NCBI GenBank assembly: GCA_907163375.1
Contig: CAJQUW010007109.1
Location: 124,001-188,000 of the forward strand
DNA from: Prostheceraeus crozeri
Lineage: Eukaryota; Platyhelminthes; Polycladida; Euryleptidae
Length of the DNA: 64,000 nt
Direction of reading: 5' to 3'
A model generated the notes under the pieces. The model ran no database searches. It was not told where the DNA came from and saw only the letters and a program-made list of their open reading frames with translations. The position numbers and the translations under genes are program-made. This document shows, in pieces, positions 20,452 to 64,000 of the stretch (its first letter is position 1; each line of letters starts with the position of its first letter).

Positions 20452-20910
20452 ATGAGCAACATAAATGAGTTTTTGAAATTATATGGAACACAAACAACAA
20501 CGAATTTCGATTTAAAGAAAATCGCAAATCAATTGGGAATAAAGAATTTTCATGTTCTAATGAGAGGAGAATTACAATTCCTAAAAAATAAGCCAACAAT
20601 AACTATAAATTTCATAACAAATCTTCATACGTCAGACCAAAAAGGAATACATTGGTCTGCAGATATCTTTAATAAAAATCGAGATAATTACTATTTCGAC
20701 CGCCCAGAGGCTGAGAACTATTGGTTCGACTCTTATGGACTTCCACCTACAAACGAAGTCAAAAAATTACTTGGCAATGGAATTTATAATACATTTCAAA
20801 TTCAAAAACCGGGAACTACTTATTGTGGTCAATTATGTCTTTATGTTTTATTGAAATTACAGGAAGGAGTGCCATTTCTTGATATTATGTTAGAATTGAA
20901 CGAACCGTAG
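20452..20910 (+). CDS. Adenain-like cysteine protease of B
   Basis: 152 residues, intact. The catalytic His is in GIHWSADIF, the Asp in YWFDSYGLPP, and the Cys in TTYCGQLCLYVLLKL, in the order and spacing of adenovirus protease and Polinton homologues. It would process GG-type sites in the minor capsid proteins. The gene is plus strand while the capsid genes to its right are on the minus strand. Its stop codon lies inside a double hairpin (20902-20926), so the last residues (NEP) may have been set by that insertion. Confidence 0.85.
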   Translation: MSNINEFLKLYGTQTTTNFDLKKIANQLGIKNFHVLMRGELQFLKNKPTITINFITNLHTSDQKGIHWSADIFNKNRDNYYFDRPEAENYWFDSYGLPPTNEVKKLLGNGIYNTFQIQKPGTTYCGQLCLYVLLKLQEGVPFLDIMLELNEP

Positions 20911-20926
20911 GTTCTATGGCTGCGCC
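20902..20926 (+). repeat. Double hairpin 1 (at protease stop)
   Basis: GAACC-GTA-GGTTC, spacer TAT, GGC-TGC-GCC. It is GC-rich in an AT-rich context and supplies the TAG stop of the protease. Confidence 0.7.
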
Positions 20927-20987
20927 TAAGAAGGAAATTTCATTCCCGAAACGTTAGTTCCAATAATAATAATAATAATAATGATAA

Positions 20988-22234
20988 TTAAAAATCAGTT
21001 CGTTGTAATTCATTTTGATAAAAATGGCCTCTGATATCTTCATTATCTAAATCTTTGATTTCGTAAGTAATCGGATAAGTTTGGTTTATTTTACAAACTT
21101 CAAATATCTCTTTCGTCCAGTATCCGACGAAGCCTTTTTCAAATTTATTCTTATATTTAAATATTTTAACTCTATCTCCAATTTTAAATTTCGGCTTAAG
21201 TTTCTGCAAATTCGGATTACTCTCATTCGAATAATTATTCTCGAATATTTTTTTCTTATCAAATCAGGGTCGTCAGAAGCATTCTTTGGAGTTTCTTCAA
21301 TACCAGAATGAACTTTATTATTGTACTCTTCTACAACTCCTGGTAACTCCTTCAACCATTTCTGATTTCTTTGCTCAGTAAATTTCTTGAATAATTTATT
21401 TTTTAACGTCCGATTGAATCTTTCTATCACTACGGCCTTCCCTGCATTTTCAGTTGAATAAACAGTTTCAAATAGTGGCTGAACATTTCGGTTATAAAAT
21501 TCCTACCCTTTATCAACAAACAATTTCCTTGGCTTTCTATTACTTTCTTTAAAGATTTCTTCAAACGCATATTTAACTGATAGACCACTTTTGTTTTTTA
21601 AAGGCTTTACCCAAGCGTATCGTGTATATAAATCTATAACGGTCAATGCGTACTTAAACCCTCCTTCATTCGGCATATGAATAAGATCAGCACTCCAAAT
21701 ATCATCTTTATTAAATACTTTTACTTTCAATAAATATTTAGGCCTTCTATATTCCTTGTGAATTTCAGACGCGTAGGTTCGAGCGTTGCTCTCAGACAGC
21801 TTTGCTGTCGTTTCATTTGCTGACGGATCAATACCCTGACCGAATAATATTTTAGCTTGTAAAGCTTTCTTAACAAACATTCTTTCAATTCTTTCTCTAA
21901 AGGAAGGATTTTGAATACTATCTAATTCCTGAATCATTTTCTTATCAGCTGCATGTCGAGAACTTAGATCATGATTTCGATAAGCTAAATCATGCCTGTA
22001 AGCTGCGGCATCTACTCTATTTATTGGTTCTTCACCTGGTTTCGGATTATTGTTCTCATCTAGTCTTATATCTAATCGAGTTCCTGGACCGGTATATGAA
22101 TGACCAGGAAGATGTTTTTCTTTCGAATATTTACTCCAAATAAATCCAGGAAAGTTTTCTAATGTTTTTTGTATGTCGTTACCTTCATAAATTTTACAAT
22201 TTGAGTTTTTATTTTTGTTTAATAGATAATTCAA
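20988..22234 (-). pseudogene. Phospholipase A2-like domain joined to integrase
   Basis: One reading frame joins two domains. Residues about 30-95 hold a PLA2-like region: HSYTGPGTRLD fits the Gly-rich calcium loop and YRHDLAYRNHD fits the His-Asp catalytic motif, as in parvovirus VP1. After a linker, the integrase core has D (IWSADLIHM), D (LFVDKG) and E (VIERFNRTLKN), then an SH3-like tail. No chromodomain. Lesions are an in-frame TAG at 21503-21505 and a frameshift in the A/T run at 21248-21254. No in-frame ATG is present; the start used (22234) is TTG, and an ATG lies just upstream in another frame. Confidence 0.75.
21781..21809. repeat. Double hairpin 2 (in PLA2-integrase linker)
   Basis: GAGC-GTT-GCTC, spacer TCA, GACAGC-TTT-GCTGTC. 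It lies inside the coding frame between the PLA2-like and integrase domains. Confidence 0.7.
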
Positions 22235-22342
22235 TAAATCTAAATTAGCAATTTTTAATTTATTAAATTTTCGGAATTTGTAGAATTCATTTTAAAAGAT
22301 AAAATAAATGTTTTACCTTATGGATTAAAGGTCCTGAGGTTA

Positions 22343-22824
22343 TTACCGAATCTTACTAGGACTTAGATATATTCCAGAACCATCTTTAGTTTCTTTAATT
22401 TCAATTAAATCATCAACATTGCGGAGAATATTTTAAGAACTCGTTTTCCTTCATCAACCAAATTTAATTTACTAATGAAATTATCTACTATTGCTTCACC
22501 CCTCGCAACTTTTTCTAACTCTCTATTATGACGTTTTTGTTCTTCTAATGCTGCCTTCTCTGATTTATTTTTATTTACTGCTTGGACAATACCAGCTGTC
22601 CCACCTGCAACACTTCCTGCAGCTGCTATGCCACCTATTATTAGAGGAATTAATGGGAGAATCCCGCCATTCTTTTCTTCTTGTAATTGAATATTCTCTA
22701 TCATTGGTTTACTTATGTAATACTTTTTTTTGTTAATCGTAATAGTTTTAGGGGTATTTTTGTCAACAATATTACGTAATTTTAATTCAACAGTTTTATT
22801 ATTATTACTTTTCGCTTGCGACAT
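22343..22824 (-). pseudogene. Minor capsid protein with membrane segment (pVI/pX-like)
   Basis: Starts MSQAKSNNN. A NGG|ILPLIPL site is followed by a Gly/Ala-rich hydrophobic segment (GGIAAAGSVAGGTAGI) and a charged helix. After a 1-nt indel near 22430 the other frame continues to TAA at 22343-22345 and contains GSGIYLSPSK, another motif frequent in Polinton minor proteins. The role is probably that of a membrane-active minor capsid protein released by the protease. It lies on the same strand as the capsid genes. Confidence 0.6.
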
Positions 22825-22857
22825 TTTTAATAAAAAAATTTTAAGTTAGGAATTTTA

Positions 22858-23005
22858 AATCTATTCTAGTTACGAAAAATTTTAATCTATTCTAGTTATG
22901 AAAAATTCTTAAGTTACCAATAATTTTAAATTAGGAATTTTTAATCTATTCTAGTTATGAATCAATTTTAAATTAGGAATTTTTAATCTATTCTAGTTAC
23001 AAAAA
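22858..23005. repeat. AT-rich tandem repeat
   Basis: The segment TCTATTCTAGTTA recurs four times between A/T runs, upstream of the minor capsid gene and downstream of the major capsid gene. Confidence 0.7.
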
Positions 23006-23054
23006 AAATTTATTACTAATTACTAAAAAAAATTTAAGTTAACAAAAATTTTAA

Positions 23055-24299
23055 TTAACTTATCCTAGCCATCTTTCCATTAAGAATTTCAATAGAATAT
23101 TTTACATCTTCTAGCAATAAACCATAAGCCATCAATGAACTTGTGGAATCTTTTTTTTCAATATTAATTGTTACATCACAACCAGTCTTGATAATATCTT
23201 CAGATTGTGCACTTAAATCGAAACAGAAAACAGGATATAAATGTCTCCAATCTCCAGGAGTTAATTGTGGTTCAACTCCAAATTCTATACAAAGATTTCT
23301 ATAAGCATCATATCCTTCCATAAATTGATTATTGGTATCATCGAATCTTAATGGATCAATTGGATATCGGGTTTGATTTAATGAAACTTGTAAACTTCGA
23401 ATTGTATTAGTATGAAAAAGATTGTGGTTCTTATCAAAACTTGGAGAATTATTTCTTTGAAATGTTAGTAATAAATATCTTGGAGTATTCGAAGTTCTAG
23501 TAAAATACCTGTTAAATCTTTGTTCGGAAAAAGTGACAGAACTCGCAGTACGCTTTAGAAAATTTACTGGAATTGGTTTGTTAGTATTTAATCTTTTTGC
23601 AATAGCTGTTTCAACCTCTAAACTAGGAGTAATATGCTTAATCCACCATTCAAGTCTATCAATTTTTAAATATGCTTTTTTTCCAGTCTTACCAAAAAAG
23701 ATTAATTCATTATTTGCTGTACGATGAATTATTAATTTAAATTTTAATTGATATGATATTTTGTCATAATCTAAATATCCGAATAATGGAGACAATGACC
23801 AATTTACTGTCTGTTTACTTTTCTTGTTAAATTCACGTCTTTCTTTATATGCACTATTGTTTGTTTTATTTAAATGATTTGCAATATTTTCTACATCTTT
23901 CGCAATTCCTGCTGCATCTGTTCCAGCGTGAGTTAAATCATCTATAATTATACCATCATTAGTATCAGGAAACCAACCTTCGATTTCATACTTTTTATTA
24001 TTTTCACCAATTGTTACAAATCTAAGCATTGTATCAATTACACCTGGAGAATCACTTATTGTTTCTATATTTTGAGTTGCAACATCTAAACGCATTTGTG
24101 TAAATAATGTTGGAAAAAAATTATTCTCCAGTGCAATATTATCGGTTTCTGGTAATGGTGTTGTAAAATTAGCATCACTATATAAAGAATATTCACAGTG
24201 CAAAAAGGAATCGGGTAGATATAAATAACTTTGTTGATTATCAACTTCAAAAATTAAATCACCTCCAGTATTTACTCTACTGGAAGATCCGGGATTCAT
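23055..24299 (-). CDS. Major capsid protein of B, double jelly-roll
   Basis: 414 residues, intact. The N-terminal segment DLIFEVDNQQSYLYLPDSF and the following NFFPTLFTQMRLDV match the first jelly-roll strands of Polinton/adintovirus major capsid proteins. A later FKLIIHRTANNELIFFG and RLEWWIKHI belong to the same barrel, and the second barrel holds WRHLYPVFCFDLSAQ. It would form trimeric hexon-like capsomers. Length is normal for the family. It differs strongly from the A capsid gene, showing that A and B are distinct lineages. Confidence 0.8.
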   Translation of the reverse strand: MNPGSSSRVNTGGDLIFEVDNQQSYLYLPDSFLHCEYSLYSDANFTTPLPETDNIALENNFFPTLFTQMRLDVATQNIETISDSPGVIDTMLRFVTIGENNKKYEIEGWFPDTNDGIIIDDLTHAGTDAAGIAKDVENIANHLNKTNNSAYKERREFNKKSKQTVNWSLSPLFGYLDYDKISYQLKFKLIIHRTANNELIFFGKTGKKAYLKIDRLEWWIKHITPSLEVETAIAKRLNTNKPIPVNFLKRTASSVTFSEQRFNRYFTRTSNTPRYLLLTFQRNNSPSFDKNHNLFHTNTIRSLQVSLNQTRYPIDPLRFDDTNNQFMEGYDAYRNLCIEFGVEPQLTPGDWRHLYPVFCFDLSAQSEDIIKTGCDVTINIEKKDSTSSLMAYGLLLEDVKYSIEILNGKMARIS

Positions 24300-24495
24300 A
24301 GCAATTCTTATATAGTCATTCTTTTTTTGATTTTAACTGACGAACGGAGGATCGTCTAATCTAAATTTATTTTCGATAAGCGAAGACTTTTTGAAAAAAA
24401 TAATTTGACTTTTTTGTTTTTCACATACACAGAAAAATTTTACTAAAAAAATTACTAAAAAATTTTACTAAAAAAAATTTTACTAAAATATAATT

Positions 24496-24978
24496 TTAGA
24501 ATTTTGCTAGACCATTACCTCTTATTTCTTCAATTGAACGTTTTATGGCTACGCCTGATTTCTTCTTATGTTTACTATCAGACGGAGCTCCGCTCCTCAA
24601 GGTTTCCCCCACAGCTATGTTAGCAATTTTGTTTTTTGTTTCCTCTGAAAGTTTTTTTAAATTTTTTAGTTCTTCAGAATCATTCCTAAGTTTACGAATA
24701 GTTTCTAACTGTTTTAATTCGTTTTGAGACTTAACAGCATTTGATATTGCACTAGCTGTACTACCTATAGCAGCTGCTCCTTTTGCAGCAGATGTAATCA
24801 AATCTTTATTATTTTTAATTCAGTTAACGATACTTCCAATACCAGAAAAGATACCAGCCCCTTCTTTTTGAATTGTTTCTACACTGTCATAATGGTAAAC
24901 AGATTTCATAGATGGTTCATGAGCATTTTTTTTATTTGAAGCAAAATGTTTAAGATTGTGTTTATAAAATATAGGCAT
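24496..24978 (-). pseudogene. Small minor capsid protein with GG site, nonsense-broken
   Basis: A 161-codon frame starting MPIFYKHNLK, with one TGA at 24820-24822. Before the stop is EGAGIFSGIG, which fits a protease site. After it come an Ala-rich helix (SAAKGAAAIGSTASAIS), a charged coiled segment and a basic tail ending near GNGLAKF. The pattern is that of a precursor virion protein. GC-rich bases at 24584-24596 encode GAPSD and are a hairpin insertion. Confidence 0.55.
24584..24608. repeat. Double hairpin 3 (second arm weak)
   Basis: GGAGC-TCC-GCTCC, spacer TCA, then a weak AGG-TTT-CCC. A lone GGC-TAC-GCC hairpin lies nearby at 24547-24555. Both are inside the minor capsid frame. Confidence 0.45.
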
Positions 24979-25031
24979 TTTTTAGGATTAAATTTGACTT
25001 TTGGGAAAAAATATTTACGTTAATATTTGCG

Positions 25032-25920
25032 CTAAGATTTACGTTTGTGAATGGACAACAACTTCGAATTAACTTTATTAATTGCCTGTTGCACTTTATC
25101 TATTGCGTCAAGCAGCGCGTGATGTACTTTAATTTCTTTTCTATTAACTTGCATTTTCTGCTGATTAATCTTCAATGCCGTTTTAAGAGCATTTAACTTA
25201 ATTTCAAGAACATCTAATTGTCTTTTAACAGCATCTAACTGTTCTTTATTTTCTTTAGAGTTTTCTTGTAAATTTTTCTTTAATTCATTTTCTAAATTGA
25301 TTTTAAGATTTTTCATTTTATCAACTTTTTGATTAAGTGAGTTTACTTCATTTATTATTCTATTCATCTTTTTCATTTGTTGAGTAATTTTGGAACTTAA
25401 TTCATCAACACTTTTTTGGAATGTAGTTTGTAACTGCTTTAAATTTTTTTAAATTCTTTCAGGAAGTTTTTCTATTTCATCTTCTAATTGTTCTTTTAAC
25501 ATTTTTATCTGATGTTTATTTTTAATGACTGCAGATTTTAACTTTATAGAAAGTAATATTAAAATTTTTGATTGTTCTGAAATCTTTTTAAAAAGTTTTG
25601 CTATATCTGCTTCTAAGCTCTCTATCCTTTTTATCAAGTTTTAATAATTTTTCGTTTAATGATTTGTCATTAAGTTTTAGCAACTTTAATTCATTCATCA
25701 GTGGAACCAAAACATCGTTTATATATTTTTCTTTTAAGTCATTGATTTGTGTATCAACATATTGTTTATTTGTTAACTCTGTATTTTGTTGCGGAAGAAT
25801 AGAAAGATGCAATGGACCAGATAAAACGTCTCCAGTTTTCATGATATAATTTTCTATTTCTATTTCTAATTCACGATTATTCGGGATATATGCACCTCCA
25901 CCAACATTTGGTAACATCAT
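25032..25920 (-). pseudogene. Fibre-like protein with phage-type shaft motif and coiled coils
   Basis: The first part contains MKTGDVLSGPLHLS and NKQYVDTQIND, the motif of trimeric phage tail-fibre shafts (GxLxGPLxL..DxxAxxKxYVD). About 200 residues of heptad-rich coiled coil follow. The reading frame is broken twice: a frameshift near 25620, and TAA at 25449-25451, beyond which the same frame runs to 25032. Gene order next to the capsid genes supports a receptor-binding spike or fibre role, which is inference. No head domain is visible. Confidence 0.5.
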
Positions 25921-25994
25921 TTTTTAACAATAAAAAAATAAAATTTTTTCTAATAAAAATAAAAAATAAAGTTTTTTCTAATAAAAATAAAAAA

Positions 25995-27422
25995 ATGGAT
26001 AAAGCAAATTTAAAAAAATTATATTCGCCCGTTTCATCCTGTTCTTCTTATTCGACGAGATCAACGGGATTTGAAAATAAATGTTTTGATAATAATAATA
26101 ATAATCCTTGTATAGATGTAAATCTTTTATTCGAATTACAAGCAGAAATATTTGGAGAACAGACTAAAGGTTTACCTTCTATAGAAACTAACTATTGTTT
26201 ATTTCCAGGTGATCCATTTATAAAATTTATGGAGATTGTAAGTAAATATAATGATGTTGCGTATGTAGAATTGAATAAAGATAATATGGTAATCATTGGT
26301 CATAATAATGTTTATGGATTCATTAGAGCAGTTTTACCGATTAGTAATACTGAGTGGATAGAAAATAAAATTATCAATTATATCAATATTAAAGAATTAG
26401 TTAAAAAATTAAAATCGTTTTCCAAGGAAAAAATTAGATTATTTGTTGATGAACAAAACCAATATAATATTCATATAGAAAGTAAAAAACATAATGAAGA
26501 ATGATTATGTCAAGTTTATTACAGAGATACAATTTATAAACAAGAAACATTAGAAATGCCCCAAAGATATGATGATGATACTTATATAAGGTTATATTCA
26601 AATTTAAATATTAATTTGTTAAAATCTTATATAAATGGTTTAGCTCAACAAGAAAAACTTTATATGTGGACAACACCTTATACTATTAACAATGACCATA
26701 ATCATAATCATAAAAATATTAAAGAATCTTATAATAATAATTTTAAAGAATCTTATAATAATAATGATGATAATATAGATGATGATTCTGAAACATCTGA
26801 AAAAGGTGTGAATGGTAATAAAGATTATAAAAATATTAGTAATTATAAAAATTGAAGTGAAGAAAAATTTATATCACAACATGATATTAATACTACATAT
26901 AATCAAAATTTATCTAAATTTCATTTTCTTACAATTGAAAATAATAATGATGGAATGGTTGAAGATACTGTTAGACAACTATGTGTCGGGTCTACAAAAT
27001 TTAAATTAGGATTTACATCTAATCAATTTAAAATTTTATCATCTTTAATAAAAACTAAAAGTGATTCAGATTATGGTGGTGTTATTAAATTTTCCAAAAG
27101 AGATCAAAGACCAATATTTTTCACTATTATATTATTATCAAATAATAAATATAATTTGGAATTAGATATTCCTATCAGGGAATGGCATCCTATACCAAAA
27201 AGTGTAATTTATGATGTTGAAGAATCAATTTATGATGATGATGAAGAATCAATTGATGATGATGATGAAGAATCAATAGTTAGTGAAAATAAATTTAAAT
27301 TATCTTTTGATAAAACGTTATATGATAAAACTTAATATGATAAAACTTAATATTATAAAACATTATATGATAAAGAAAATAAAATAACTAAAGAACGTGA
27401 AATATATAATGATATATATTAA
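25995..27422 (+). pseudogene. Possible sliding-clamp-like protein beside the polymerase
   Basis: One frame of 475 codons holds four stops: TGA at 26502-26504 and 26853-26855, and TAA twice near 27333-27350 inside a small tandem repeat. The start MDKANLKK at 25995 follows an A-rich leader like those of other B genes. Residues about 75-165 have a PCNA-like alternation: FIKFMEIVSKYNDVAYVEL, then IIGHNNVYGFIRAVLPI, then INIKELVKKLKSF and IRLFVDEQN. A low-complexity Asn/His/Asp linker and a second beta-rich part follow. The position directly before the polymerase suits a clamp. The assignment is tentative; I cannot test it without a profile search. Confidence 0.35.
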
Positions 27423-27850
27423 CTCTCAAGTCCTTGATATTAGAATGTTTATATCTAAAATAAAAACACAATTTTTTTCTTTAAAAAATAAAAAAATGGA
27501 AAATACCAAGTTTTATTGTGTCTTATGTAAAAAAAAGTTGCAAACAAAAAGAAGTTATCAATCTCATTTAAATAGTAAATTGCATTTACAAAATGTAGAT
27601 CGAGTTGATGAAGGAAATATATTAAAATTAAATAATTATATAAACTATCTAGAAACATTGCCTACTGATATAAAAGTTAAAAAAATGTTTGATGATTATT
27701 CACATTCGGAATATAAAAAAGTTTTTAATAGTGAAGATGAACATGTACCAGATGGAAGATATTTATTTAGCGATACTGATGAATTTGATGAAATAGATGA
27801 ATTTGATGAAGCGGTAACAGATATAAAATATTTATTTAATGAATCTGTGC

Positions 27851-27876
27851 GAACCGAAGGTTCTAGGGCTTCGCCC
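27851..27876 (+). repeat. Double hairpin 4 (in polymerase)
   Basis: GAACC-GAA-GGTTC, spacer TA(G), GGGC-TTC-GCCC. It is translated in frame as TEGSRASP within an acidic linker. Confidence 0.75.
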
Positions 27877-29393
27877 GTTGAACATAATGAAACCGATGAA
27901 ACTTTTTCTGATATTCTATCCAAATTTTTCAAAATATTTAAGAAATCTTTTAAATGTTATATGAATGTAGAAGTACTTTATACAAAAAATGGACCTGACG
28001 GAATTCCTGAAGAAATAATACAAGGACATTTTACAAATTCACAAGAAATTCATAATGTAAATGATATACAACCCATATTTGAACAAATGATACTTAAATT
28101 AGAAAATTGTATAATTGAAGCCCAGTTACGTGAATCTGGTTGGAGATTTGTTAAAATACTATCTAAGAAAATAGTAATTGATAAATATAAAAATAATACT
28201 GGTGGTAGTTATGTTCCTTTACCTTTCAGTTCACCACAAATAATTAACATAAAAAATGAAGATGATTATTGTTTTCTGTGGAGTATTATAGCACATTTAC
28301 ATCCTGCAGAATATCACAAAGAAAGACTAAGTCATTATAATAAAGAAGAATACATAAAGGAATTTGATCTTTCGGATGGTTTACATGAATTTCCATATGA
28401 TTATAATAGGTTAAAAAAGTTTCATAAAAAGAATAAAAATTTAATAGAAGTAAATGTTTTTGAATTAAATGTGAATTATGCTTCTATTGGTAAAATTACT
28501 CCACTTTACTCAGATTCAAAAAAATTTTATTTGAATAATAAAAATTTATGTCAATCAGAAATAGTATATAATGATAGGGGAAATTACATGCATCATAATA
28601 TTTTTTACCAAGGAAATATAATATGTACTGAAAAATTTGAAATTGTTAAAACATTATCACCAATAATGATTAATCATAATAATTATAAAGGACGTAATGA
28701 TGATTATAATTACAAATATTCATCTTTATCTTTAGAATATCAACAAAAATTACAAAATTTAAATGAAAGTTTACAAAAATGTAAAACAGATTATCAACAA
28801 CAAACAAAAATATTAGTACAAGAATATGGTCATAAATATCAAAATAAGATAGAAACGATTCAAGAATTAAATAAAGACAATAAAGAATTAAATAATGAAG
28901 AAAATAAAGAATTAAATGAATGTTTAAAAAAATGTCAACAACAATATAAAGAACAATATAATAAAGAATATGAACAACAGCTACAAATATTAAATCAAAA
29001 TTTTCATCGAAATACATTTAATCTTACAAAAGAAATTGATGAAACACATGAAATATATAAAGATAAATTTGAAAAATTAAAACAAACAAAGCAACCAGCA
29101 CAAGCGAATATATTATATTATCAGGGTCATTTTATATTGTGTAAAGATGTTTCTATATTTACAAAAACTTCAGATAATGCTAATTTTCCCTGTGTCCAAT
29201 GTATGGCGAGCTTTAGAACTAAAGAAGAAATGAATAGACATTTGGAGAATTGTCAACAAAATGAAGCAGTTGAAAATACATTTCCTAAAGATGATTATTT
29301 AATATATAATAGACATTATTTGAAAAATAAAGTACCCTTTACTATTTATTGTGATTTCGAAGCATATAATGTTAATATGACACAAAAGCACGG

Positions 29394-29424
29394 GACATCG
29401 GAGATGTCTTCCAGGGCTTCGCCC
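29394..29424 (+). repeat. Double hairpin 5 (in polymerase)
   Basis: GACATC-GGA-GATGTC, spacer TTCCA, GGGC-TTC-GCCC. It is translated in frame as TSEMSSRASP, just after exonuclease motif I. Confidence 0.75.
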
Positions 29425-31321
29425 GATTCTGAAAATGATAATTCTGAACAAAGTAAAGAAAAGTATTTATTTGAACAAAAACCATTATGTTGGGGAATGT
29501 ACATTCATTCAAATTATCCTGAATTATTTAAATCAGAATATTATCAATACTATGGTGAAGATAGTTCAGAAATGTTTACAAAGAAAGTAGAAGAATTACA
29601 ATGTCGTTTTTCACAATTGCTTGAAACAAATATACCAATGCTTCCATTAACAGAAAAAGAAAAATTAAATTTTATTAATGAAACAAAATGTTATTACTGT
29701 GGAAAAGAATTTACAAAAAATTATAAAAATGGCAGAGGTAGATATCTTGACAAAGTAAAAGATCATGATCATCTAAATGGATTATATAGAGGTGCAGCAC
29801 ATAATTCTTGTAATCTTAATGCTAATAAATTTAAATATAACTTTGTTCCTCTATATTTCTACAATGGTTCTAAATATGATTTCCATCTAGTAATGAAAGA
29901 TTTATTTTCATCTGAAAAATTACAACAACAACAAATAAATGTACTATGTAAAACAGAAGAAGAATATTTTTCAATGCAATTAGGTTGTATTAGAATTTTA
30001 GATGCATTTAGATTTTTTACTCCTTATTCATTAGATGTTATGGGAAAAACTTTGAAATCTGAACAATGTAAAATATTAAATAAATATAATTTAAAACCTT
30101 TGAAAGGAATATTTCCGTATGAGTACATAACTGGAGATTTTAATTCTGTGAATAAAATTATGGAAGAACAGAAACTTCCTCCAATAAATAAATTTAAATC
30201 AACATTAAAACAATCACAATTATCTGACGAAGACTATGCAGAAGCTGAAAAAAATTGGAGAGAGTTAAATTGTAAAACAATGTATGATTATACAATGAAA
30301 TATCTACAGATAGATGTATTAATACTAGCTGATCTTTTCGAAAACTTTCGTGATATGTGTTTAGAATATTACGGAATAGATCCATGTTATTGTTATTCTA
30401 CACCAGGTTTAACATGGTTAGCAGGATTAAAACATACAAATGTTAAACTTAAACATTATAAAGAAAATACATATGATAAATTATTATTTTTTGAATCTGG
30501 AATTAGAGGTGGAGTTTCATCAGTTTTAGGTAATCGTTATGTACAGTGTTACAATAAAAAAGTAAATCCTGATGATTATGGAATAATGAAACCTTTATCT
30601 CCAGAAGAAAGTGATCAGTTTATAAAATTGTTTAATCAAAATATAGAAGGACTTATATCAAATGAAGATAGTCAAGCAGCAGTTGATGAAATCATGAGAG
30701 AAAACTATTTGTTATATTATGATTTTAATAGCTTATATTCTTCTTGCATGATACAAGAATTACCAACAGGTGAGATGGATTGGTGTAATATTCTAGATTA
30801 TCAAAAAACATATGATGGAAATTATAATCATGGTTATATATATGAAGTTGATTTAGTATACCCTGATGAAATAAAAGATAAAACAAAATATTTTCCTTTC
30901 TGTCCCGAAAACAAAATTCCCAATATAGAAGATTTTTCAGATTATCAAAAATCTATAATTCCTAAGAAATACAGACCAACAAAAAAACTTATGTTAACAC
31001 AAAGTAAAAAAGGAAAGTATGTTGTTGAAGGAAGAATGCTAGATTGGTATTTAGATCATGGAATGATTCTCACAAAAATTCACCGGAAACTAGTGTATAG
31101 AAAATCTATGTGGTTAAAAAATTATATAGAGTTCAATATTGAAAAACGTAAAATAGCTAAAAGAAATAAAGATGATTTTGGAAACGTGTTCTTCAAATTA
31201 ATGAATAATGCATTTTATGGGAAGACTTTAGAAAATGTGCGTAATAGAGAAAATATTGAAATAGTTTATGATAAAGATAGGTTTCAAAATTTAACAAGGA
31301 AACCTACATATAAAAGAACTA

Positions 31322-31728
31322 TGACGGCATACGTCCAATTTGCGCTATTAAGTTGAAAACACCTCAACTGATGCACTAGAATTGTATTTCTTAGATGCAA
31401 CGTGAAAACTGCAATAAAAAATACAAGACTCATCATTTCACGCTCATAAGTAAATTAGCTACATTTTATCATCAATAAAATTTCTCATCATAGGGAGTTA
31501 CAAATATGCCTAAAACTCACCGTTTCCAGCTTTAAATAGCACAATATGTACAATGTCTATTTACATGAAATTCTAGGATCCTGATAGACCCAACAAATCA
31601 AAACCTTTTCGTTGTCTGGTAACTAAGAGACATACAAACATTTGAACAGGGATAAAAAATTTGATTTAGAAAAACAAGCATTAAGAAATTCAGCGTCCAG
31701 CTGAAGGCAATGTCTTAAGTCCGTTACA
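31322..31728 (-). repeat. BEL 3' LTR
   Basis: On the minus strand it begins TGTAACGG and ends GCCGTCA. It differs from the other LTR by a single base that I could find (AATAAAAAATAC here, AATAAATAATAC in the other). Confidence 0.88.
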
Positions 31729-31740
31729 CTCCCCCCAACA
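31729..31740 (-). promoter_or_regulatory. Polypurine tract of the BEL element
   Basis: The minus strand reads GTTGGGGGGAG directly before the 3' LTR start TGTAAC, the position where plus-strand DNA synthesis is primed. Confidence 0.7.
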
Positions 31741-32057
31741 ATTCAAACGTCAGTTGGAAGAGAATTGTTCAGAGTAGGTCCTAATACAAGGTTAAAAAAA
31801 ATGCTTCTTCTTAAATTCTACGTTCATATGTACATACATGAATTGCACTCGTCTCAAATATTATATACAAGATAAGTCCTTACAAAAACACTATAACTAA
31901 TCGAAAAGAACGAGGCCTTCCAAAAAAATCTCAAGATTTTATCTACTGGCCCTACACTATAAAAGAACAACAGATGCGTGAAATTCCGAAACAACAAAGT
32001 AGACTGACTTCAATCAGGAAATAGCTGATGGCTGAAGAAATACGAATAAAAATACAG
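31740..32057. other. BEL 3' untranslated spacer
   Basis: No gene; AT-rich sequence between the end of pol and the polypurine tract. Confidence 0.6.
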
Positions 32058-35000: not shown

Positions 35001-35774
35001 GATAAACCACGACTCTCCATCTTTATTTTCAGTGGAAAGTTCTGCATCATTCTTAGCAATCACATCTTCCATAAAGGTAGTGTAATCACTGTGAAACTTT
35101 TCATCTCTTGACATTTTTTTCTTTAAATGTTCAAGTCGTTTTTCGGCCAGCAATCTATTATTTGGTAAGCTAGGACGAGATTTGAATGGAAGGGGTAACT
35201 GTATATGGCCATTTTCGAGTTGCTTCATTTCGTCGTTCATCATATCAATGAATCGAACATCTTCTTGAGAAAATTTCATATCTGTCTCAAATTTAAAATC
35301 GCTCTCTAGAACTGACAGGACATCAAGACTATTGATTGGTACTTCCTTAATACTTGTTCTATGACAAAAGACAGAGCTCGAGCATTTGCCACCAACAATG
35401 GACCAACCTAGATCGGTCCTCACAGCAAATGGTTCATCTTTTATCCCGCTTATTACTTCTCTAGGAGTCAGAGCTTGAGGGCAATTGTAACCGATCAGAA
35501 GACCTATTTCACAATTTTGACGAGGAGGTATATCATTTTTTATTTTCTGTAGATGCTGCCACTTACTAGCAGTGTCCGAGGTCGGAATGGCACTTTTATC
35601 TGCAGGAATTTCGTCTTTCGTGTATAACTTTGGGACGACCATAGTAATATCACTGTCTATGCCTCTGACCTTTAAACAACGAATTGCTTGACAATCGACA
35701 ATGGCACAGCTGGATAACATCGTGGAAAGCTTCAAACGAACATCGTGTGCATGCAGATTTAATGCATCCTTCAA
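32058..35774 (-). CDS. BEL/Pao pol polyprotein, N-terminally truncated
   Basis: 1,238 residues without an ATG start; the frame begins after a TAA upstream. Order: the C-terminal part of an A17-type protease region (EIGLLIGYNCPQAL..DLGWSIVGG), reverse transcriptase with FYVDDGICS, RNase H (HHFSDAS), an H2C2 zinc site (HFHEKVMHQG, CVAC), integrase D-D-E (GMDCFGPF, CDRGSNF, GGIWERQ) and the C-terminal domain common in BEL integrases. The protease active-site aspartate lies upstream and is missing. It would encode reverse transcription and integration if joined to a complete 5' part. Confidence 0.85.
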   Translation of the reverse strand: MKDALNLHAHDVRLKLSTMLSSCAIVDCQAIRCLKVRGIDSDITMVVPKLYTKDEIPADKSAIPTSDTASKWQHLQKIKNDIPPRQNCEIGLLIGYNCPQALTPREVISGIKDEPFAVRTDLGWSIVGGKCSSSVFCHRTSIKEVPINSLDVLSVLESDFKFETDMKFSQEDVRFIDMMNDEMKQLENGHIQLPLPFKSRPSLPNNRLLAEKRLEHLKKKMSRDEKFHSDYTTFMEDVIAKNDAELSTENKDGESWFIPHHGVYHPKKPNKIRVVFDCSSKFAGTSLNDHLLSGPDLTNSMLGVLCRFRKNRIARTCDIERMFHQFLVKPEDRGYLKFLWWPGGNFDLSPIEYRMRVHLFGASSSPGCANFGLKHLASLHKDDMKLGADFILHNFYVDDGICSTHSIEEAIRVAGEARTICQEGGLRLHKFCSNRKDVLSVLPRDELSSDLKEADLHVDLLPLSSTLGIQWDTNDDCFLFKMTKRDDGITNRRHVLSMVASIYDPLGFLAPFILCGKGILQIMCKNGISWDDELPQDLMPKWKRWLSDFSLISDVRIPRCITPPLFSDVKVIELHHFSDASTVGYGQCSYVKLIDQTDRIHCTLLMGKSRVAPSKVTTIPRLELAAAVLSAKVSNMLKEELNLSPNKEVFWTDSKVVLGYISNDVRRFQMYVANRVQIIRNFSKPHQWRYVESRSNPADHASRGLTAYELQRSNWYSGPDFLWNPKIDYTQAENYPLSAKDPEIKRPVVFSTSATTSPSTPILSCIKRFSEWMPLLRAFARLQRRVKGLKSCLPASVSEIENATHFLVRTSQEELEKSDSFLSLNPFTDNDGIIRVGGRLQSSSLSYGIKFPIILNKNSHVSLLLVRHFHEKVMHQGRGMTLNELRSNGFWIISASHLVSSVIRSCVACRKLRRPVECQMMAELPYDRVEPSPPFTFCGMDCFGPFVTKVGRKENKRYGVLFTCCCSRAIHIEALDDLTTDAFINALRCFIAIRGKVKQIRCDRGSNFVGAQSELKRAFEEQFDAKGLTAYLRDQNCEFVFNVPHASHMGGIWERQIRTIRSILSNVVDLQSKRLDDSSLRTLFYEAMAIVNNRPLTTDFHNSIDIEPLTPNHILTMKSSIPPPPGEFTQKDMYLRKRWRRVQYLSEQFWSRWRKEYILSQNLRKIWKSERRNVKVGDVVLLDEPDVKRNEWPLGKVAEVVPSSDGLVRRVKVLVVRKGSPKILERPINKLVLLVESK

Positions 35775-35797
35775 TCTTTCAGCATGTTGCTGACTTT

Positions 35798-42054: not shown

Positions 42055-42056
42055 TT

Positions 42057-57842: not shown

Positions 57843-58480
57843 GATAAAATTTGCTTATTATTGGCTAAACAATAAAATAAAAATATATTATAAAAATTAT
57901 AAAATATAAAATTATAAAATTATATTATATAAAAAATTATAATAAAAGCTAGAAATAATTTGCTAAATGTTTTGTAAAAATTTTGAAAATTTACAAAATA
58001 TTTACTAAACATTTCGTAAAAGTTCAGAGAATTTGCCAAATGTTTTGTTAAAGTTTGGCAAGTTTGCTAATTAGTTAAAGCTTAGGAAATGTACTGGGTT
58101 TGATAAATATTTCTTAAATATTTCTTAAATGTTTAGGACTTTAATGCTAAGTACTTGGTAAGTATTTGTTAAACTGACAACGGTAATTTTAGTCGGGTAT
58201 ATGCAATACATTACATTTTGGTCACTTCGCTTTACGCATGCAAGCATTCATCCTATGTTTCCAGCTTCATCAGCAACCCAAATGCAGAAGCCGAAGAGTT
58301 TCCTATTCGACATCTATCTGACCGAGATCAATTTGTTCTCTGACCGCGATGTAGAAAAAATGGCTTTTTAAAAGTGCTAGATTTCTATGGAAAGTTTTTA
58401 TTTGGTGTGGTCGCCGCTAAGATTTTCGTGTTCAGCGTAAAAAAATGAGTATATGTGCAAATTTTCATGGAAATCTGAGA
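57843..58480. other. Host spacer between A and C
   Basis: AT-rich, with degenerate repeats of a AATTTGCTAAATGTTTTGT type from about 57955 to 58170. No gene. The last six bases, CTGAGA (58475-58480), would be the left target duplication of C; the other copy lies beyond the window. Confidence 0.5.
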
Positions 58481-58950
58481 AGTAATGGGCAAAAGACCGT
58501 TCCTGGACACCATAAAATTCAAAAAATAGTATCTTTAAAAACGACATAAATTCATGAATTTGAACCCTTTTTCAGGTTATTAAGACCTAAATACATGAAT
58601 TTAGTCCATTCAAAAAGTACCATTTTTTCAAAAAATGGCATTTTTAAAAACGACATAAATTCATGAATTTGAACCCTTTTTCAGGTTATGAAGACCTAAA
58701 TTCATAAATTTGGGCGTTTTTAAAAATACCCAATTTTCAAATTTTTCAAAATCTCAAATTTGAGAATTACAATTTTCACCCTTAAAATCATGACCGTTCC
58801 AGGACACCGAAAATCAGAAAAGTTAAGAATCTCAAAATTTGTGAATTACAATTTTCTCGCTTAAATCATGACCGTTCCAGGACACCGAAAATCATAAAAG
58901 TTGAGAATTTCAAATTCATGAATTTTATCCATCTTTCAGGTTTTTAAAAT
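58481..58950. repeat. Left terminal inverted repeat of C
   Basis: Same architecture as the B right terminal repeat, including GACCGTTCCAGGACACC repeats and AAATTCATGAATTT palindromes. Confidence 0.85.
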
Positions 58951-58981
58951 ATATCATGTGACTAAAAATATTTCTTTAAAA

Positions 58982-59680
58982 ATGGAAGAAACAAAAGTGG
59001 AAGAAACCGCAAGAATATATCCTTCGTTATCATATGAACGTAGTTCTACTTTAATGGACATTGAAAAAATGAATAAAGAAAAACACAAAGATAGAGTACG
59101 TTATATGAAAGATAAGGAATCTCAATTATTATTAAGATTAGAGCATTATAAAAAATTAAGAAAGAGATGGAGTAAAGTTAAGAATGTAACACAAGGAATT
59201 GGCATATTCTTAACAATAAGTTTAGGCGCTCTCACTATTGTTATATCTTCTGGTGTTTTAGTAATTCCAGTAGTTGCTACAGCTTTAACAGGTACGGGTG
59301 TTTTTGCAACTTCACTTGTTACAATGTTAGATAAATCTTTAATAACTAAGAAACGAAAATCATTAAAAACTAAGCATTTAAATATTAAAGAAGTCTATGA
59401 CAAATTGCATTACTACTTTCAAAGAGTATGTGATGATAATGTTATTACGTTAGATGAGATTGAAAAATTTGATCAAATAGCTAATGAAGTAAATCAAATA
59501 TCATTTCAATTACAGTCAGAAAAAGTTGATGATAAGAATAAACAGGATGGCAAAATTTCGAGTGATGGTAAAACTTTTACTGATGGTAAAATTTCTAATG
59601 AAGAAAATGATAAATTTTTTTTAGAAGAGCTAAGAACTTTAAGCGAAAATTTAAGCAAAACTTTATTAAACAAAACTTAA
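58982..59680 (+). CDS. Conserved two-helix membrane protein of C
   Basis: ATG at 58982. Same protein as 42057-42836 through the two membrane segments and the NVITLDEIEKF helix, with a short extra segment near residue 20 (YERSSTLMDIEKM) and another near the acidic end. It ends in another frame from B after a T-run near 59618, giving an amphipathic tail (FFLEELRTLSENLSK). Which tail is ancestral is unclear. Confidence 0.6.
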   Translation: MEETKVEETARIYPSLSYERSSTLMDIEKMNKEKHKDRVRYMKDKESQLLLRLEHYKKLRKRWSKVKNVTQGIGIFLTISLGALTIVISSGVLVIPVVATALTGTGVFATSLVTMLDKSLITKKRKSLKTKHLNIKEVYDKLHYYFQRVCDDNVITLDEIEKFDQIANEVNQISFQLQSEKVDDKNKQDGKISSDGKTFTDGKISNEENDKFFLEELRTLSENLSKTLLNKT

Positions 59681-59801
59681 AACGAGAAACCTTTAAACGA
59701 AAAGATGTCAGACAACAAAGCAATAAAAAAATAATTTGTTCAGTAAAATGTTTTTGTTGTATTCCAATGTTACCACAAAATTCAAATATTATATTTTAAA
59801 A

Positions 59802-60625
59802 ATGGATACAATTAGAGCTGATAATCAAAAAAGAATTAAACAATTAGAAGAGTTAATAAAACAAAGAAATATTATGAAAGAAAATCATCTTCAACATAGA
59901 ATGATAAAAGCTGGTATTCAATCTGATATGTTTGAAAAAATGCAGCAAACCGAGCAAGTAAAAACTGATTTTGAAAAAACTATGAAACCATTTAAAACTC
60001 TTGAAAAAGAACTTACAAATAATGATAAACAAATTGATATAACAGATCCAGAGCACAAAACTATATTAGATGACTATGGATTACTAGAATCAAACATTAA
60101 TAAGAAATTACCAAAATCTATGCAATTTGAACATTCTATCTCATTTATAGATGGAAAAACAATACCTAGATTTTATCTCGGACAAAAAGAAATATTTCCA
60201 CAACCTTTTCGAGGTTTAATTTTTCACCAGATAAATCTCCTTTTAATTTAGATAGAAATTTTGTTGATCTTTTAAGAGGAGCAGATTTAAATAATTATGC
60301 TATAGAAGATGTCATAAAATATAAAGCTATGTTAGATAGAGTTGGTGCAGTAAAATCTCTTAGACGTTATAAACAATTAGAAAATTTATTATCAACGGGA
60401 GTTAAAGTAGGAAAAGGTTTATCTGAAAAACAGAAAACAGAAAAAACTGTATTCTTACCAGATGAACCACAAGAATTACTAAACAGATTAAATATTTTAA
60501 TATCGGCAGTAAAAGAAGGACATAATTCTAGTTTCAATGAAATTCATGCTATATTGAAAAGACTGTTAGAAAATAAGATTCTAAATGAAGAGGATTATAA
60601 AAGTATAACGAACCGAATGTTCTAG
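59802..60625 (+). pseudogene. Conserved hypothetical protein of C, frameshifted
   Basis: Starts MDTIRADNQ at 59802. Same gene as 41247-42054. The frame changes near 60225, in the sequence AATTTTTCACCAG. The second part runs to 60625, where a double hairpin supplies the stop. A KQKTEK insertion relative to B lies in the second part. Confidence 0.6.
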
Positions 60626-60635
60626 GGCTTCGCCC
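60610..60635 (+). repeat. Double hairpin 7 (at end of conserved hypothetical of C)
   Basis: GAAC-CGAAT-GTTC, spacer TA(G), GGGC-TTC-GCCC. The same site in B has another first arm, GACATC..GATGTC. Confidence 0.75.
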
Positions 60636-60750
60636 GTAGCTGAAATATCTTGTTTCTAATTTTTATTTATGATTTTTATCTATGATTTTTATCTACGATC
60701 TTTATCAACGATTTTTATCTATAATATTTATTCAAAATTTTAACTAAAAA

Positions 60751-61539
60751 ATGTGTTCAGCAGATTTAGACAAAATTAATAATCATTTAGAAAATTTGAC
60801 AGAGATTTTGGGTTCATCAAAATTTAGTACGACGTTAAAAATTATAACAACTACTTCATCACACACTTGTAATTTAGAACCCATTCTACATTTGGAACAA
60901 AATAAAAATTATCAAATTGCATTGACTAGTTTATCTACATTTAACACTATTCAAAATGTTATAAAAGATGTGAATGATCAATTTAGATATTCTACTGATA
61001 AAGGCAAAACATGGAAAATATTAACTTTTCTTCCTGGTTCTCACGAAGTTGAATCAATATCAAATGAAATTAAGAGACATTTAGGTATACCATTTAAAGA
61101 TAAGAAACAATTACATTTTGCAGTTGAACCGGCAGTCAATAAATTTTCTCTTACTTTAGACGAAAATCATCAAGTTGATTTTAATCATGATAGATCATTG
61201 TCAAAGCTATTAGGATTTAATGAACAAACCTATAGTCAAGGTTATCATTTAGGTGAGAAGATTCCAAAAATAACTGAAATAAATTCAATTGTTGTACATT
61301 GTGACATTATTGAAGGAGGATATATAAATGGTAAATTGTCAAATTTAATATTCAGTTTTCCAGCTTTTACTGTACCCATTGGTTATAGATTAAATGAAAT
61401 TCCACAAACATTAATATATTTCCCTATTACAAGAAAAACTATTAACAACATTAACATGAGAATCACTGATGAAAAAGGAAAAGAAATAAATTTTGGAGGT
61501 GAAGAGATTATGATAGATCTTTTGGTTCGGGAGGTATAA
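60751..61539 (+). CDS. Penton-like minor capsid protein of C
   Basis: 262 residues, intact, almost the same as 40371-41159, differing at a handful of residues (for example ALTSLSTF against ALTSFSTF). It ends LLVREV. Its stop lies in a single copy of the palindrome GGGAGGTATAAACTCCC, the unit that is repeated five times in B. Confidence 0.75.
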   Translation: MCSADLDKINNHLENLTEILGSSKFSTTLKIITTTSSHTCNLEPILHLEQNKNYQIALTSLSTFNTIQNVIKDVNDQFRYSTDKGKTWKILTFLPGSHEVESISNEIKRHLGIPFKDKKQLHFAVEPAVNKFSLTLDENHQVDFNHDRSLSKLLGFNEQTYSQGYHLGEKIPKITEINSIVVHCDIIEGGYINGKLSNLIFSFPAFTVPIGYRLNEIPQTLIYFPITRKTINNINMRITDEKGKEINFGGEEIMIDLLVREV

Positions 61540-61625
61540 ACTCCCACGCAAAGCTAGAGAAGTTTAATTTTCTTCTTCTTCTTTAAAAATAAAAATAAAA
61601 TAAAAATAAATCTTTTTATTAAAAA

Positions 61626-62393
61626 ATGAGTGAACTACCTCCATTTAATAAAACAAAACTTAAATTTAATCATCATCCAAATTTATCTAATAAAGTTTTG
61701 TCAGTTATTTGTGGAAGATCAGGATGCGGAAAAACATATCTATTATTTAAAATTTTAACGACTCCAAATTTTTTGGATTACAACAATCATATAATTTATA
61801 CAACAACAGCAGAACAACCCGTCTATCAATTTTTAAAATATGGATTTGAAAATAATCTTAAAAAAACAGCAATTGCTTCATTATTCAAAGAATATGAAAA
61901 ATCTGAAGATGAAGAAGAAATAAGTTCGTGGTGTGAAGAAGCAGCAAAAAATAATCAGTTAGTTGAATCCAATAAAAATAAGCATATAAAGATACAATTA
62001 ATAGATGATAGTGGTAATATGCAAGATCCTAGTAAACTAGATAAAACAATGAAACATTGTGTAATTTTTGATGATTGTGTTAATGACAGAAATCAGTCAG
62101 TTCAGAGAAATTATTTCACAAGAGGTAGACATAATAACTGTAGTGTATTTTATTTAACACAAAGTATGTATTCATTAGACGGAAGTGTTATTAGAAAGAA
62201 TGCAAATATATTTATACTATTTGAAATAAATGCAAGAAACTTAAGTGATTTGTTAAGAGATTTATGTGTAAGAAATAAAGATGAATTTAAACAATCGCGT
62301 AACAATGCTTGGTCAAAAGATTATGGCTTCATTACAACTAATATTGATAAAAAAATTCATGATAGAGTTATAGAACATTTGTTTACCGAGTGA
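61626..62393 (+). CDS. Packaging ATPase of C
   Basis: 255 residues with an ATG start, intact. Walker A CGRSGCGKT and Walker B HCVIFDDCV as in B. The start codon that is TTG in B is ATG here. It converges with the polymerase gene. Confidence 0.87.
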   Translation: MSELPPFNKTKLKFNHHPNLSNKVLSVICGRSGCGKTYLLFKILTTPNFLDYNNHIIYTTTAEQPVYQFLKYGFENNLKKTAIASLFKEYEKSEDEEEISSWCEEAAKNNQLVESNKNKHIKIQLIDDSGNMQDPSKLDKTMKHCVIFDDCVNDRNQSVQRNYFTRGRHNNCSVFYLTQSMYSLDGSVIRKNANIFILFEINARNLSDLLRDLCVRNKDEFKQSRNNAWSKDYGFITTNIDKKIHDRVIEHLFTE

Positions 62394-62477
62394 TAAAAAA
62401 TATACAAATATAGTGTTATAATATTTTTTATTTTTTTTATGTATATATCAAATTTGACTATCTTAGAAATTAGAAAA

Positions 62478-64000
62478 TTAAAAAGGTGAAGTAGTTATTC
62501 CATCAGGTAAAATTTTTCTTTTATCATCAAATGGATCTAATGCTAATTTATGTTCTTCTTTTAAATACATTTTATGTTTTTTTGAATTAAGTCTATAATT
62601 ACATGCTGTTTTTATTTCATTATTAAATAATACATTTTTATAATCTTGAAATGTTATTTGATTAGCCACTGATGCCTTTGAAATTCCTTTTAATGTTTTA
62701 TGTGTTTTAATATTATTAGTTGTGTTATAACAATAACATTTAGATTTTAAAAATATAGCTTCTGTTATGAAATCTTCATTTCCTTCTAATTCATCTTTTA
62801 CTTTACATAAATCAGAAGGATGAATGATATCTTTTATTTTATCTATTTCTTTAACAAGTGTAGAATTATACGGTATTGTTAATTCTAAGAAAACAGAATC
62901 GGTATCTGTAAAGTGTAATTTATAGTTTTTGCCATAAGCAGGTGCTAAATAATCATATATAAATCTATACATAAATAGTTTAGCTAATTCTAATATAGTG
63001 AATCCTATAAAATTAAACTTATCATGTTTTACGCTGATTCGACGTAAATGTACAGCACATAGTTCATCACTAAATCTAGTAGTTCTTTTATATGTAGGTT
63101 TCCTTGTTAAATTTTGAAACCTTTCTTTATCATAAACTATTTCAATATTTTGTCTATTACGCACATTTTCTAAAGTCTTACCATAAAATGCATTATTCAT
63201 TAATTTGAAGAACACGTTTCCAAAATCATCTTTATTTCTTTTAGCTATTTTACGTTTTTCAATATTGAACTCTATATAATCTTTTAACCACCTAGATTTT
63301 CTATACACTAGTTTCCGGTGAATTTTTGTGAGAATCATTCCATGATCTAAATACCAATCTAGCATTCTTCCTTCAACAACATACTTTCCTTTTTTACTTT
63401 GTGTTAACATAAGTTTTTTTGTTGGTCTGTATTTCTTAGGAATTATAGATTTTTGATAATCTAAAAAATCTTCTATATTGGGAATTTTGTTTTCGGGACA
63501 GAAAGGAAAATATTTTGTTTTATCTTTTATTTCATCAGGATATACTAAATCAACTTCATATATATAACCATGATTATAATTTCCATCATATGTTTTTTGA
63601 TGATCTAGAATATTACACCATGACATTTCACCTGTTGGTAATTCTTGTATCATACAAGAAGAATATAAGCTATTAAAATCATAATATAACAAATAGTTTT
63701 CTCTCATGAATTCATCAATTGCATTTTCACGTTCTACTCCTTCTCGTTTCGTTCGAAAAATTTCTAATATTTTTTCTTTTTCTTCTGGAGATAAAGGTTT
63801 CATTATTCCATATTCTTGTGGATTTACTTTCTTATTATAACATTTAACATATCTATTACCTAAAACTGATGAAACACCACCTTTAATCCCAGATTCAAAA
63901 AATAATAATTTATCATATGTATTTTCTTTATAATGTTTAAGTTTAACGGACTTTGTCCTAGAGCCATCGGCTTGAACACCAGTATGTTTTAATCCTGCTA
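62478..64000 (-). CDS. Family B DNA polymerase of C, 3' part (5' part beyond window)
   Basis: The frame is open from the window edge to the stop at 62478. Motif A YYDFNSLYSS, motif B KLMNNAFYGKT and motif C HFTDTDSVFLEL are all present in one frame. The BEL target (AGAACTACTAG on the minus strand) is uninterrupted near 63083. Relative to B a 30-nt in-frame insertion carries double hairpin 8, and a segment after PLSPEE is divergent. Confidence 0.88.
   Translation of the reverse strand, partial: AGLKHTGVQADGSRTKSVKLKHYKENTYDKLLFFESGIKGGVSSVLGNRYVKCYNKKVNPQEYGIMKPLSPEEKEKILEIFRTKREGVERENAIDEFMRENYLLYYDFNSLYSSCMIQELPTGEMSWCNILDHQKTYDGNYNHGYIYEVDLVYPDEIKDKTKYFPFCPENKIPNIEDFLDYQKSIIPKKYRPTKKLMLTQSKKGKYVVEGRMLDWYLDHGMILTKIHRKLVYRKSRWLKDYIEFNIEKRKIAKRNKDDFGNVFFKLMNNAFYGKTLENVRNRQNIEIVYDKERFQNLTRKPTYKRTTRFSDELCAVHLRRISVKHDKFNFIGFTILELAKLFMYRFIYDYLAPAYGKNYKLHFTDTDSVFLELTIPYNSTLVKEIDKIKDIIHPSDLCKVKDELEGNEDFITEAIFLKSKCYCYNTTNNIKTHKTLKGISKASVANQITFQDYKNVLFNNEIKTACNYRLNSKKHKMYLKEEHKLALDPFDDKRKILPDGITTSPF
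63948..63972. repeat. Double hairpin 8 (in polymerase of C, absent in B)
   Basis: GGAC-TTT-GTCC, spacer TA(G), AGCC-ATC-GGCT. B has no such sequence at the matching codon (near 30441). Confidence 0.8.

Follow-up and report, generated by a model that had tools for sequence, protein, structure and literature searches.

Double-hairpin micro-elements that probably parasitise one Polinton family in the flatworm Prostheceraeus crozeri

Mitochondrial double-hairpin elements were reportedly first described in Allomyces. The present analysis concerns small hairpin elements in a stretch of 64,000 nucleotides from the polyclad flatworm Prostheceraeus crozeri (contig CAJQUW010007109.1, positions 124,001 to 188,000; hereafter the window), for which an original prediction had listed eight double-hairpin sites in two Polintons, called B and C. 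The closest described systems are summarised here as far as the available parts of the cited papers go. Hairpin and double-hairpin elements have invaded the mitochondria of sponges and fungi in a lineage-specific manner (PMC2800124). The GC clusters of yeast mitochondria (GC42 and others) are short GC-rich palindromes flanked by direct repeats of AG or ACT, which differ in presence or absence between genomes and undergo merger and shuffling, with stand-alone or merged forms at one site (PMC4478555). In the organelles of Volvox carteri, palindromes with loops of 3–5 nt were called selfish, and some nuclear copies exist (PMC2670323). According to PMC10969869, the palindromic elements of Rickettsia lie in frame in protein genes, measure about 150 bp and encode a conserved peptide, and in-frame palindromic elements are found in genes of other prokaryotes too (PMC2996958).

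Each element in the window is a pair of short neighbouring hairpins, in most cases with loops of 3 nt; C and G frequently form its ends. Such elements insert into one Polinton family with a 2-bp duplication, and directly beside their own kind. The mobility suggested by the original prediction is borne out by presence and absence with 2-bp duplications, by about 13,300 right arms in the source genome, by covarying arms and by near-restriction to one Polinton family in the sample. We therefore have very little doubt about mobility itself, past or present, and consider it likely that these are structure-defined, non-autonomous mobile micro-elements of approximately 28–37 bp which parasitise one Polinton family.

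Like the yeast GC clusters, they are GC-rich palindromes in AT-rich DNA with a short flanking duplication, and their units merge and are shuffled within a site. Unlike those clusters, which are mitochondrial, mostly intergenic and flanked by AG or ACT, they reside in nuclear Polinton DNA, at coding sites, gene ends and terminal inverted repeats (TIRs), use A/T-rich targets (AT, TA, TT), in many cases preserve the reading frame and have two hairpins with 3-nt loops (PMC4478555). A resemblance to fungal mitochondrial double-hairpin elements, already noted in the original prediction, is supported by the adjacent stem-loops, the presence/absence pattern and the sequence-diverse families; small hairpins, some in neighbouring pairs and in sequence-diverse families, are also seen in the fungal and sponge mitochondrial elements (PMC2800124). 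The available part of that paper holds nothing on a Polinton location or nuclear activity of such hairpins. Two neighbouring short stem-loops, which characterise the mitochondrial double-hairpin elements or RHE, are present here as well; the difference lies in the residence in Polintons with TIRs, beside a BEL/Pao retrotransposon, in a genome of 2.05 Gb. As in Rickettsia, an in-frame selfish palindrome is tolerated as an extra peptide, although the Rickettsia elements are bacterial, about 150 bp long and encode a conserved peptide, whereas those described here measure 28–37 bp and lie in a eukaryotic transposon (PMC10969869). The shortness, the 3–5-nt loops and the presence in nuclear DNA are shared with the Volvox carteri palindromes, whose nuclear copies, for their part, were judged inert and organelle-derived; the mitochondrial repeats of Volvox are only intergenic or intronic, apart from one rRNA module (PMC2670323). 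The accessible part of a paper on mycorrhizal mitochondria holds nothing on hairpins (PMC3630166). Among the literature matches listed, which came mostly from outside the subscription journals and were available in part, none described elements of this sort from Polintons, and none described active in-frame elements from the nuclear DNA of a eukaryote. On the best reading, the elements may work like yeast GC clusters and Rickettsia palindromic elements, but in nuclear virus-like DNA.

The insertion evidence comes from alleles with and without an element. Polinton B (18892..43346) and Polinton C (58480..64000), both annotated without a strand, are copies of one AT-rich family; C lies in the opposite orientation, is truncated by the window end and is 96.2% and 93.4% identical to B over two aligned segments. 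Further copies come from a sample of 130 short loci (numbered L) of the source genome, 30 of them from the occurrence list of the right arm GGGCTTCGCCC and 100 further ones; the sampled occurrences are most of the first 100 places in contig order (contigs C2–C80) and not a random draw, and as 12 locus pairs overlap, the main counts were redone by genome position. Elements are assigned to sequence types, numbered I to V. In the type B polymerase (PolB) gene of copy C, a type III element (63947..63974, minus strand; the 63948 site) encodes VQADGSRTKS in frame and forms a 30-bp insertion, with the empty target TT at 30443..30444 (plus strand) in copy B. This peptide is missing in the 11 proteins of P0001–P0012 that cover the site, P0003 stopping short of it, and at the corresponding 30444 site 6/10 copies are empty and 4/10 carry type III. 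Another PolB element, of type I (27850..27877, plus strand), is read as RTEGSRASP; here, 10/25 copies are empty (TT), 11 have type I and four have type II, after exclusion of 10/35 rows with gaps of 50–116, the left flank also matching an upstream repeat. At a further PolB site, copy B has the empty target TA (27746..27747, plus strand), where other genomic copies hold type I, type II or both: 8/24 are empty (TA, one AA), ten have type I, three type II, one both types adjacent, and two have a shifted length (L097 and L104). At 30792, five of nine copies are empty, three carry type II and one type I. At 20597, in the protease, a 33-bp insertion of type V is present in 12 loci and lacking in the window.

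Outside the coding regions, the TIR of copy C has an empty target AT (58772..58773, plus strand) at which many genomic copies hold type I. At this site 33 rows have the empty length and 24 are longer by exactly 30 bp; the remaining 15/72 rows, with other gaps, were left out, the TIR being internally repeated. In the window and 12 aligned rows, the sequence at the empty site is AT (11 rows) or CA (one row); at the filled site, AT stands on both sides of 28 bp. The element at 24583..24610 (minus strand; the 24584 site), with one strong and one weak hairpin, lies inside a small open reading frame (ORF), which at a guess is minor capsid-like; it is a 30-bp insertion relative to L064, and 2/4 rows are empty in the recount by genome position. 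The type IV element (GACAGC/GCTGTC and GAGC/GCTC) at 21780..21810 (minus strand), within the PLA2-integrase ORF, has its counterpart in three loci that are 30 bp shorter (L006, L057, L058), though their flank has diverged, and the same kind of element is seen in L095 and L099.

Protein relatives extend the comparison to two gene ends. In copy B, the type II element at 41226..41260 (minus strand) stands at the 3' end of an ORF; it corresponds to the type I variant at 60609..60636 (plus strand) in copy C. Protein P0159, with 98% identity across the aligned 64% of the query, is empty at this site and ends KSIAEICCCF, which is what the copy B flanks would encode once the element and one TA are taken out; no empty DNA copy was found in 11 rows. 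At the 3' end of the protease ORF, a type I variant (20901..20928, plus strand) supplies the stop codon. There, the relative P0126 continues to its end as LELNKGISFPKR, and B has LELN, the element and then KEISFPKR in another frame. Finally, the type II element at 29391..29425 (plus strand), read in frame as GTSEMSSRASP in a variable PolB loop, is absent from P0001–P0003; its position is taken in L044 and L063 by an element that is of type I or resembles it.

Based on the empty/filled pairs, the element measures 28 bp for types I and III and 37 bp for type II, together with a 2-bp duplication that is mostly AT, TA or TT. An empty partner exists for 132/188 elements, a count in which some copies appear twice and loci overlap. 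Most insertions are 30, 33 or 39 bp long. Other lengths occur in non-coding DNA (31 and 32 bp near 58963, 31 in L006, 32 in L071), and further odd ones in adjacent-copy alleles (37), in L104, in L091 (36) and as alignment shifts within the repeated TIR. Perfect conservation of each site across copies, named in the original prediction as a point that would speak against mobility, is not what is seen, since empty and filled alleles coexist.

Elements also stand next to each other. In L033 a type I unit directly precedes a type II unit at the 27747 site, and in L013 type I precedes type II at the 41227/60610 site; TA and AA are repeated around type I in these alleles. L108 shows the same arrangement as L013, and L092 and L098 each carry two type II copies. 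A single site can thus lack an element, have type I or type II, or carry the two together, as at 27747, and types I, II and I+II all occur in the DNA of the 41227/60610 site. An existing element might draw the next insertion beside it, and neighbouring copies might then collapse through deletion between identical right arms, leaving one type. The elements at 41227 (B) and 60610 (C) have different left hairpins and an identical right one, a difference we attribute to adjacent insertion followed by such a deletion, which is itself conjectural. Beyond what was originally predicted, the reuse of arms at one site would then probably stem in part from these two steps.

As for the design, all eight sites (8/8) were found where the original prediction had placed them, and the double hairpin common to them is perfect at six (21781, 27851, 29394, 41227, 60610 and 63948), that is, with stems of at least 4 bp, loops of 3–5, a spacer of 0–6 and a stem GC fraction of at least 0.6. 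The fold is weaker at 20902, where the right stem has 3 bp only, and at 24584, where one hairpin arm is strong and the other weak; at 60610 the left stem has 4 bp and there is one mismatch to type I. In Polintons B and C (22.6 kb), six perfect double hairpins compare with approximately 0.05 expected from 60 dinucleotide shuffles, so the density in shuffled sequence, a check proposed with the prediction, is far below that observed. The remaining 41 kb of the window, with three double hairpins against about 1.8 in shuffles, is at chance level, and this agrees with the statement that Polinton A lacks such elements. The right arm GGGCTTCGCCC is indeed present at four window sites, against a shuffle mean of 0.10 even when one mismatch is allowed. 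Single GC-rich hairpins with a 3-nt loop number 11 in B and C, where about 1.1 are expected, and 13 elsewhere in the window, where about 13 are expected; two of the 11 (22655 and 38900) lie outside the element family. These comparisons of double hairpins, right arms and single hairpins rule out chance palindromes. The DNA folding energies of the sites alone are modest (z −0.9 to −3.4).

Within the sample, loops are 3+3 nt in 151 of the 174 distinct double hairpins. The seven distinct left arms have 94.3% of cells paired, against 26–34% in slid controls, with four of five pairs changed on both sides, and none of 500 shuffles matches the observed pairing or covariation score. For the five distinct right arms, 95% of cells are paired against 0–47% in slid controls, two of four pairs are changed on both sides, and 15/500 shuffles reach the score. 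The arms differ in sequence and yet covary, which is good support, though with so few sequences not proof, that structure rather than sequence is kept. Additional families with the same design and another sequence occur in the same Polintons (e.g., L006, L082, L107 and L112). At the same time, identical 26–28-base sequences recur at many sites, type I being nearly identical across many of them. Beyond the C and G at the ends, no terminal inverted repeat was seen; no search was made for an autonomous transposon partner. Two side observations concern the forms of the elements. Some type II elements have an extra 15-base piece (TTCATGGGTCAACGG or like) in the left hairpin (L006 at about 1470–1500, L058, L093, L095 and L099), perhaps a nested event, and in L021 (1763–1990) an element of the AGGCTTCGCCT...GGGGCTTCGCCCC kind is part of a tandem array with a period of 61 bases.

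In the source genome (14,165 contigs), the right arm GGGCTTCGCCC occurs 13,298 times (6,782 + 6,516), compared to 36 (17 + 19) for its reversed control, and the 26-base type I core 3,341 times (1,736 + 1,605), compared to 0 for the control. Among the 174 distinct perfect double hairpins, 162 have a match to the Polinton family on both flanks, ten on one flank and two (L016 and L129) on neither. The 93 distinct occurrences of GGGCTTCGCCC give a similar picture (88 with both flanks, three with one, two with neither), which places 91/93 of them in the DNA of this family. In the two others, at position 1500 of L016 and of L022, GGGCTTCGCCC forms the tip of a far longer hairpin, in non-Polinton DNA of 40% GC, possibly from another hairpin family. 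By position, the elements fall into 29 clusters, or about two dozen sites after the B and C duplicates are merged by eye. Matches of at least 300 bp between loci L004–L073 and the window copies have a median identity of 86.5% (218 matches). The element patterns had no match in viral contigs, the 26-base pattern had none in prokaryote genomes, and an 18-base pattern had three prokaryote matches against approximately seven estimated by chance, so that elements common to viruses or bacteria were rejected. Viral contigs searched for related loci gave no confirmed relatives, and a phage search using the ATPase found none.

The frame-preserving insertion within genes is a further point beyond the original prediction. 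At five coding sites (27747, 27850, 30444, 30792 and 20597), the reading frame is kept in 49 of the 51 filled copies, and in 48/51 it is kept and no stop occurs within the short stretch read; L097 and L104 lose the frame, and L008 has a stop from a point change. A single frame is used through the element at these PolB sites, giving RTEGSRASP, GTSEMSSRASP or like, or VQADGSRTKS, and the gene-end elements (20902 and 41227/60610) supply a stop and change the last residues. We infer that selection for tolerated insertions favoured unit lengths that keep the frame. P0124 contains the peptide TGTFSSRNKVPS and P0123 a similar one, both of which were predicted to be element-derived. For single peptides the reverse-translation test is weak (a stem total of at least 10 bp in 35/400 random 12-mers and of at least 11 bp in 5/400), and the prediction is firm because the element DNA was then found in L043, as well as in other loci. 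Across 161 proteins, five-residue words of the elements are overall not above expectation (14, compared to a mean of 10.6 in shuffled proteins); two overlapping ones fall in P0121, a close relative.

Polinton B, with TIRs at 18892–19285 and 42964–43345, encodes PolB and a double jelly-roll protein, along with a protein that combines PLA2 and integrase domains. Its packaging ATPase is named from a Pfam match slightly below the cut-off, and what we take to be a protease is named from the usual Polinton gene content. PolB of copy B has an endonuclease VII-like stretch whose score of 22.7 bits falls slightly short of the Pfam cut-off (23.6); in another window protein this match exceeds the cut-off. 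Copy B is interrupted, inside PolB, by a BEL/Pao retrotransposon (31318–38716) with a pair of long terminal repeats that are 99.76% identical, and with two inverted repeats of more than 99% identity in its interior (32288–32719 with 35894–36325, and 34832–35533 with 36306–37006). Near an ORF end in copy B, a 21-base hairpin unit is repeated in tandem (40281–40385), with an 84-bp difference from copy C. The ORF ending at the 41227/60610 site is divided into two frames in each copy (41623–41687 in B, 60170–60251 in C), and the splits look like the result of differing small changes. The start of the protease has a second, partial copy with 75% identity (20032–20157 and 20471–20596), and three tandem 58-bp repeats (20235–20408) lie between the two.

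How the elements move can be sketched tentatively: they may do so while the Polinton replicates, and be captured. Protein-primed polymerases displace single strands, on which the hairpins could fold; nuclease-resistant pieces would arise from the hairpins by release or copying and then be captured at 2-nt staggered breaks. Such breaks might come from a structure-specific nuclease, e.g., the endonuclease VII-like domain of the Polinton polymerase. T4 endonuclease VII cleaves branched DNA at a distance of two nucleotides from the junction. Polintons produce a 6-bp target duplication, which makes their integrase an unlikely enzyme for moving the elements. At a comparable level of confidence, it is possible that these are a class of eukaryotic transposable elements of 28–37 bp, fold-defined hyperparasites that would move only during the replication of their Polinton, via its replication and junction-cutting machinery, and whose frame-keeping unit lengths would have evolved in a gene-dense host.

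The same observations bear on other explanations. Formation of the palindromes in place through template switching or slippage, without movement between sites, would fit the free loops, and template switching is known to yield short stems of 4–6 bp; however, formation in place cannot copy a sequence between sites, and with identical 26–28-base sequences at many sites, 2-bp duplications and empty alleles this origin is very improbable. Hardly more credible is a role as functional RNA or DNA signals of the Polinton, such as terminators, processing sites or packaging signals. Two sites do lie at gene ends (20902 and 41227/60610), but many others are inside ORFs, missing from other copies, in both orientations and of varied sequence. 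An RNA family was rejected, as the window has no Rfam match at the gathering threshold, which also speaks against functional signals, and transcription end signals were rejected since many copies are within ORFs and dispensable. A host enzyme, or one of another transposon, might insert the elements anywhere in AT-rich DNA, with the Polinton merely being amplified. This would fit the AT-rich targets and the 2-bp duplication, and insertions in unamplified DNA would be rare in the sample, yet it is unlikely given that 91/93 sampled occurrences are in one Polinton family, that the other two are not such double hairpins and that the 41 kb of other window DNA is at chance level. Less unlikely, though still doubtful, is a history of a limited number of old insertions, perhaps in another host or a virus stage, which spread by Polinton amplification, recombination and gene conversion and no longer move. 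Copies at one site do have common flanks, the median identity to the window copies is 86.5%, and the adjacent I+II copies account for type swaps by deletion; against this stand the many sites that are polymorphic between copies a few percent apart and the near-identity of type I at many sites, neither of which is decisive. This last alternative overlaps with the explanation preferred here, and denies present movement only.

Several points weigh against that preferred explanation of mobile micro-elements parasitising one Polinton family, or against parts of it. The 29394 site yields no clean empty/filled DNA pair, and the duplication is imperfect in places, e.g., TG/TT around the element at 27851 in the window. 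The number of pair types in the arms is not raised (418/500 shuffles reach it for the left arms, 500/500 for the right), nor is the number of pairs changed on both sides above shuffles (reached in 23/500 for the left and 54/500 for the right). Most copies at one site were probably inherited with the Polinton, so there are about two dozen sites to count, not 13,000, and rare single copies in host DNA that is not amplified may have escaped notice at the percent level. The type I unit measures 30 bp in the non-coding TIRs too; its length is therefore a property of the element and no proof of selection at each site. As for the movement step, which we infer, no enzyme or intermediate was seen.

How the short mobile palindromes of organelles and bacteria move has, to our knowledge, stayed open. 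With many Polinton copies in one nuclear genome, the choice of target, the size of the duplication and the order of events become directly readable from alleles with and without an element, from intermediates in which two stand side by side, and from the several sequence types. The elements also suggest that a virus-like transposon can itself be host to parasites, which are so short that its polymerase gene accommodates them as a tolerated peptide of some ten residues.

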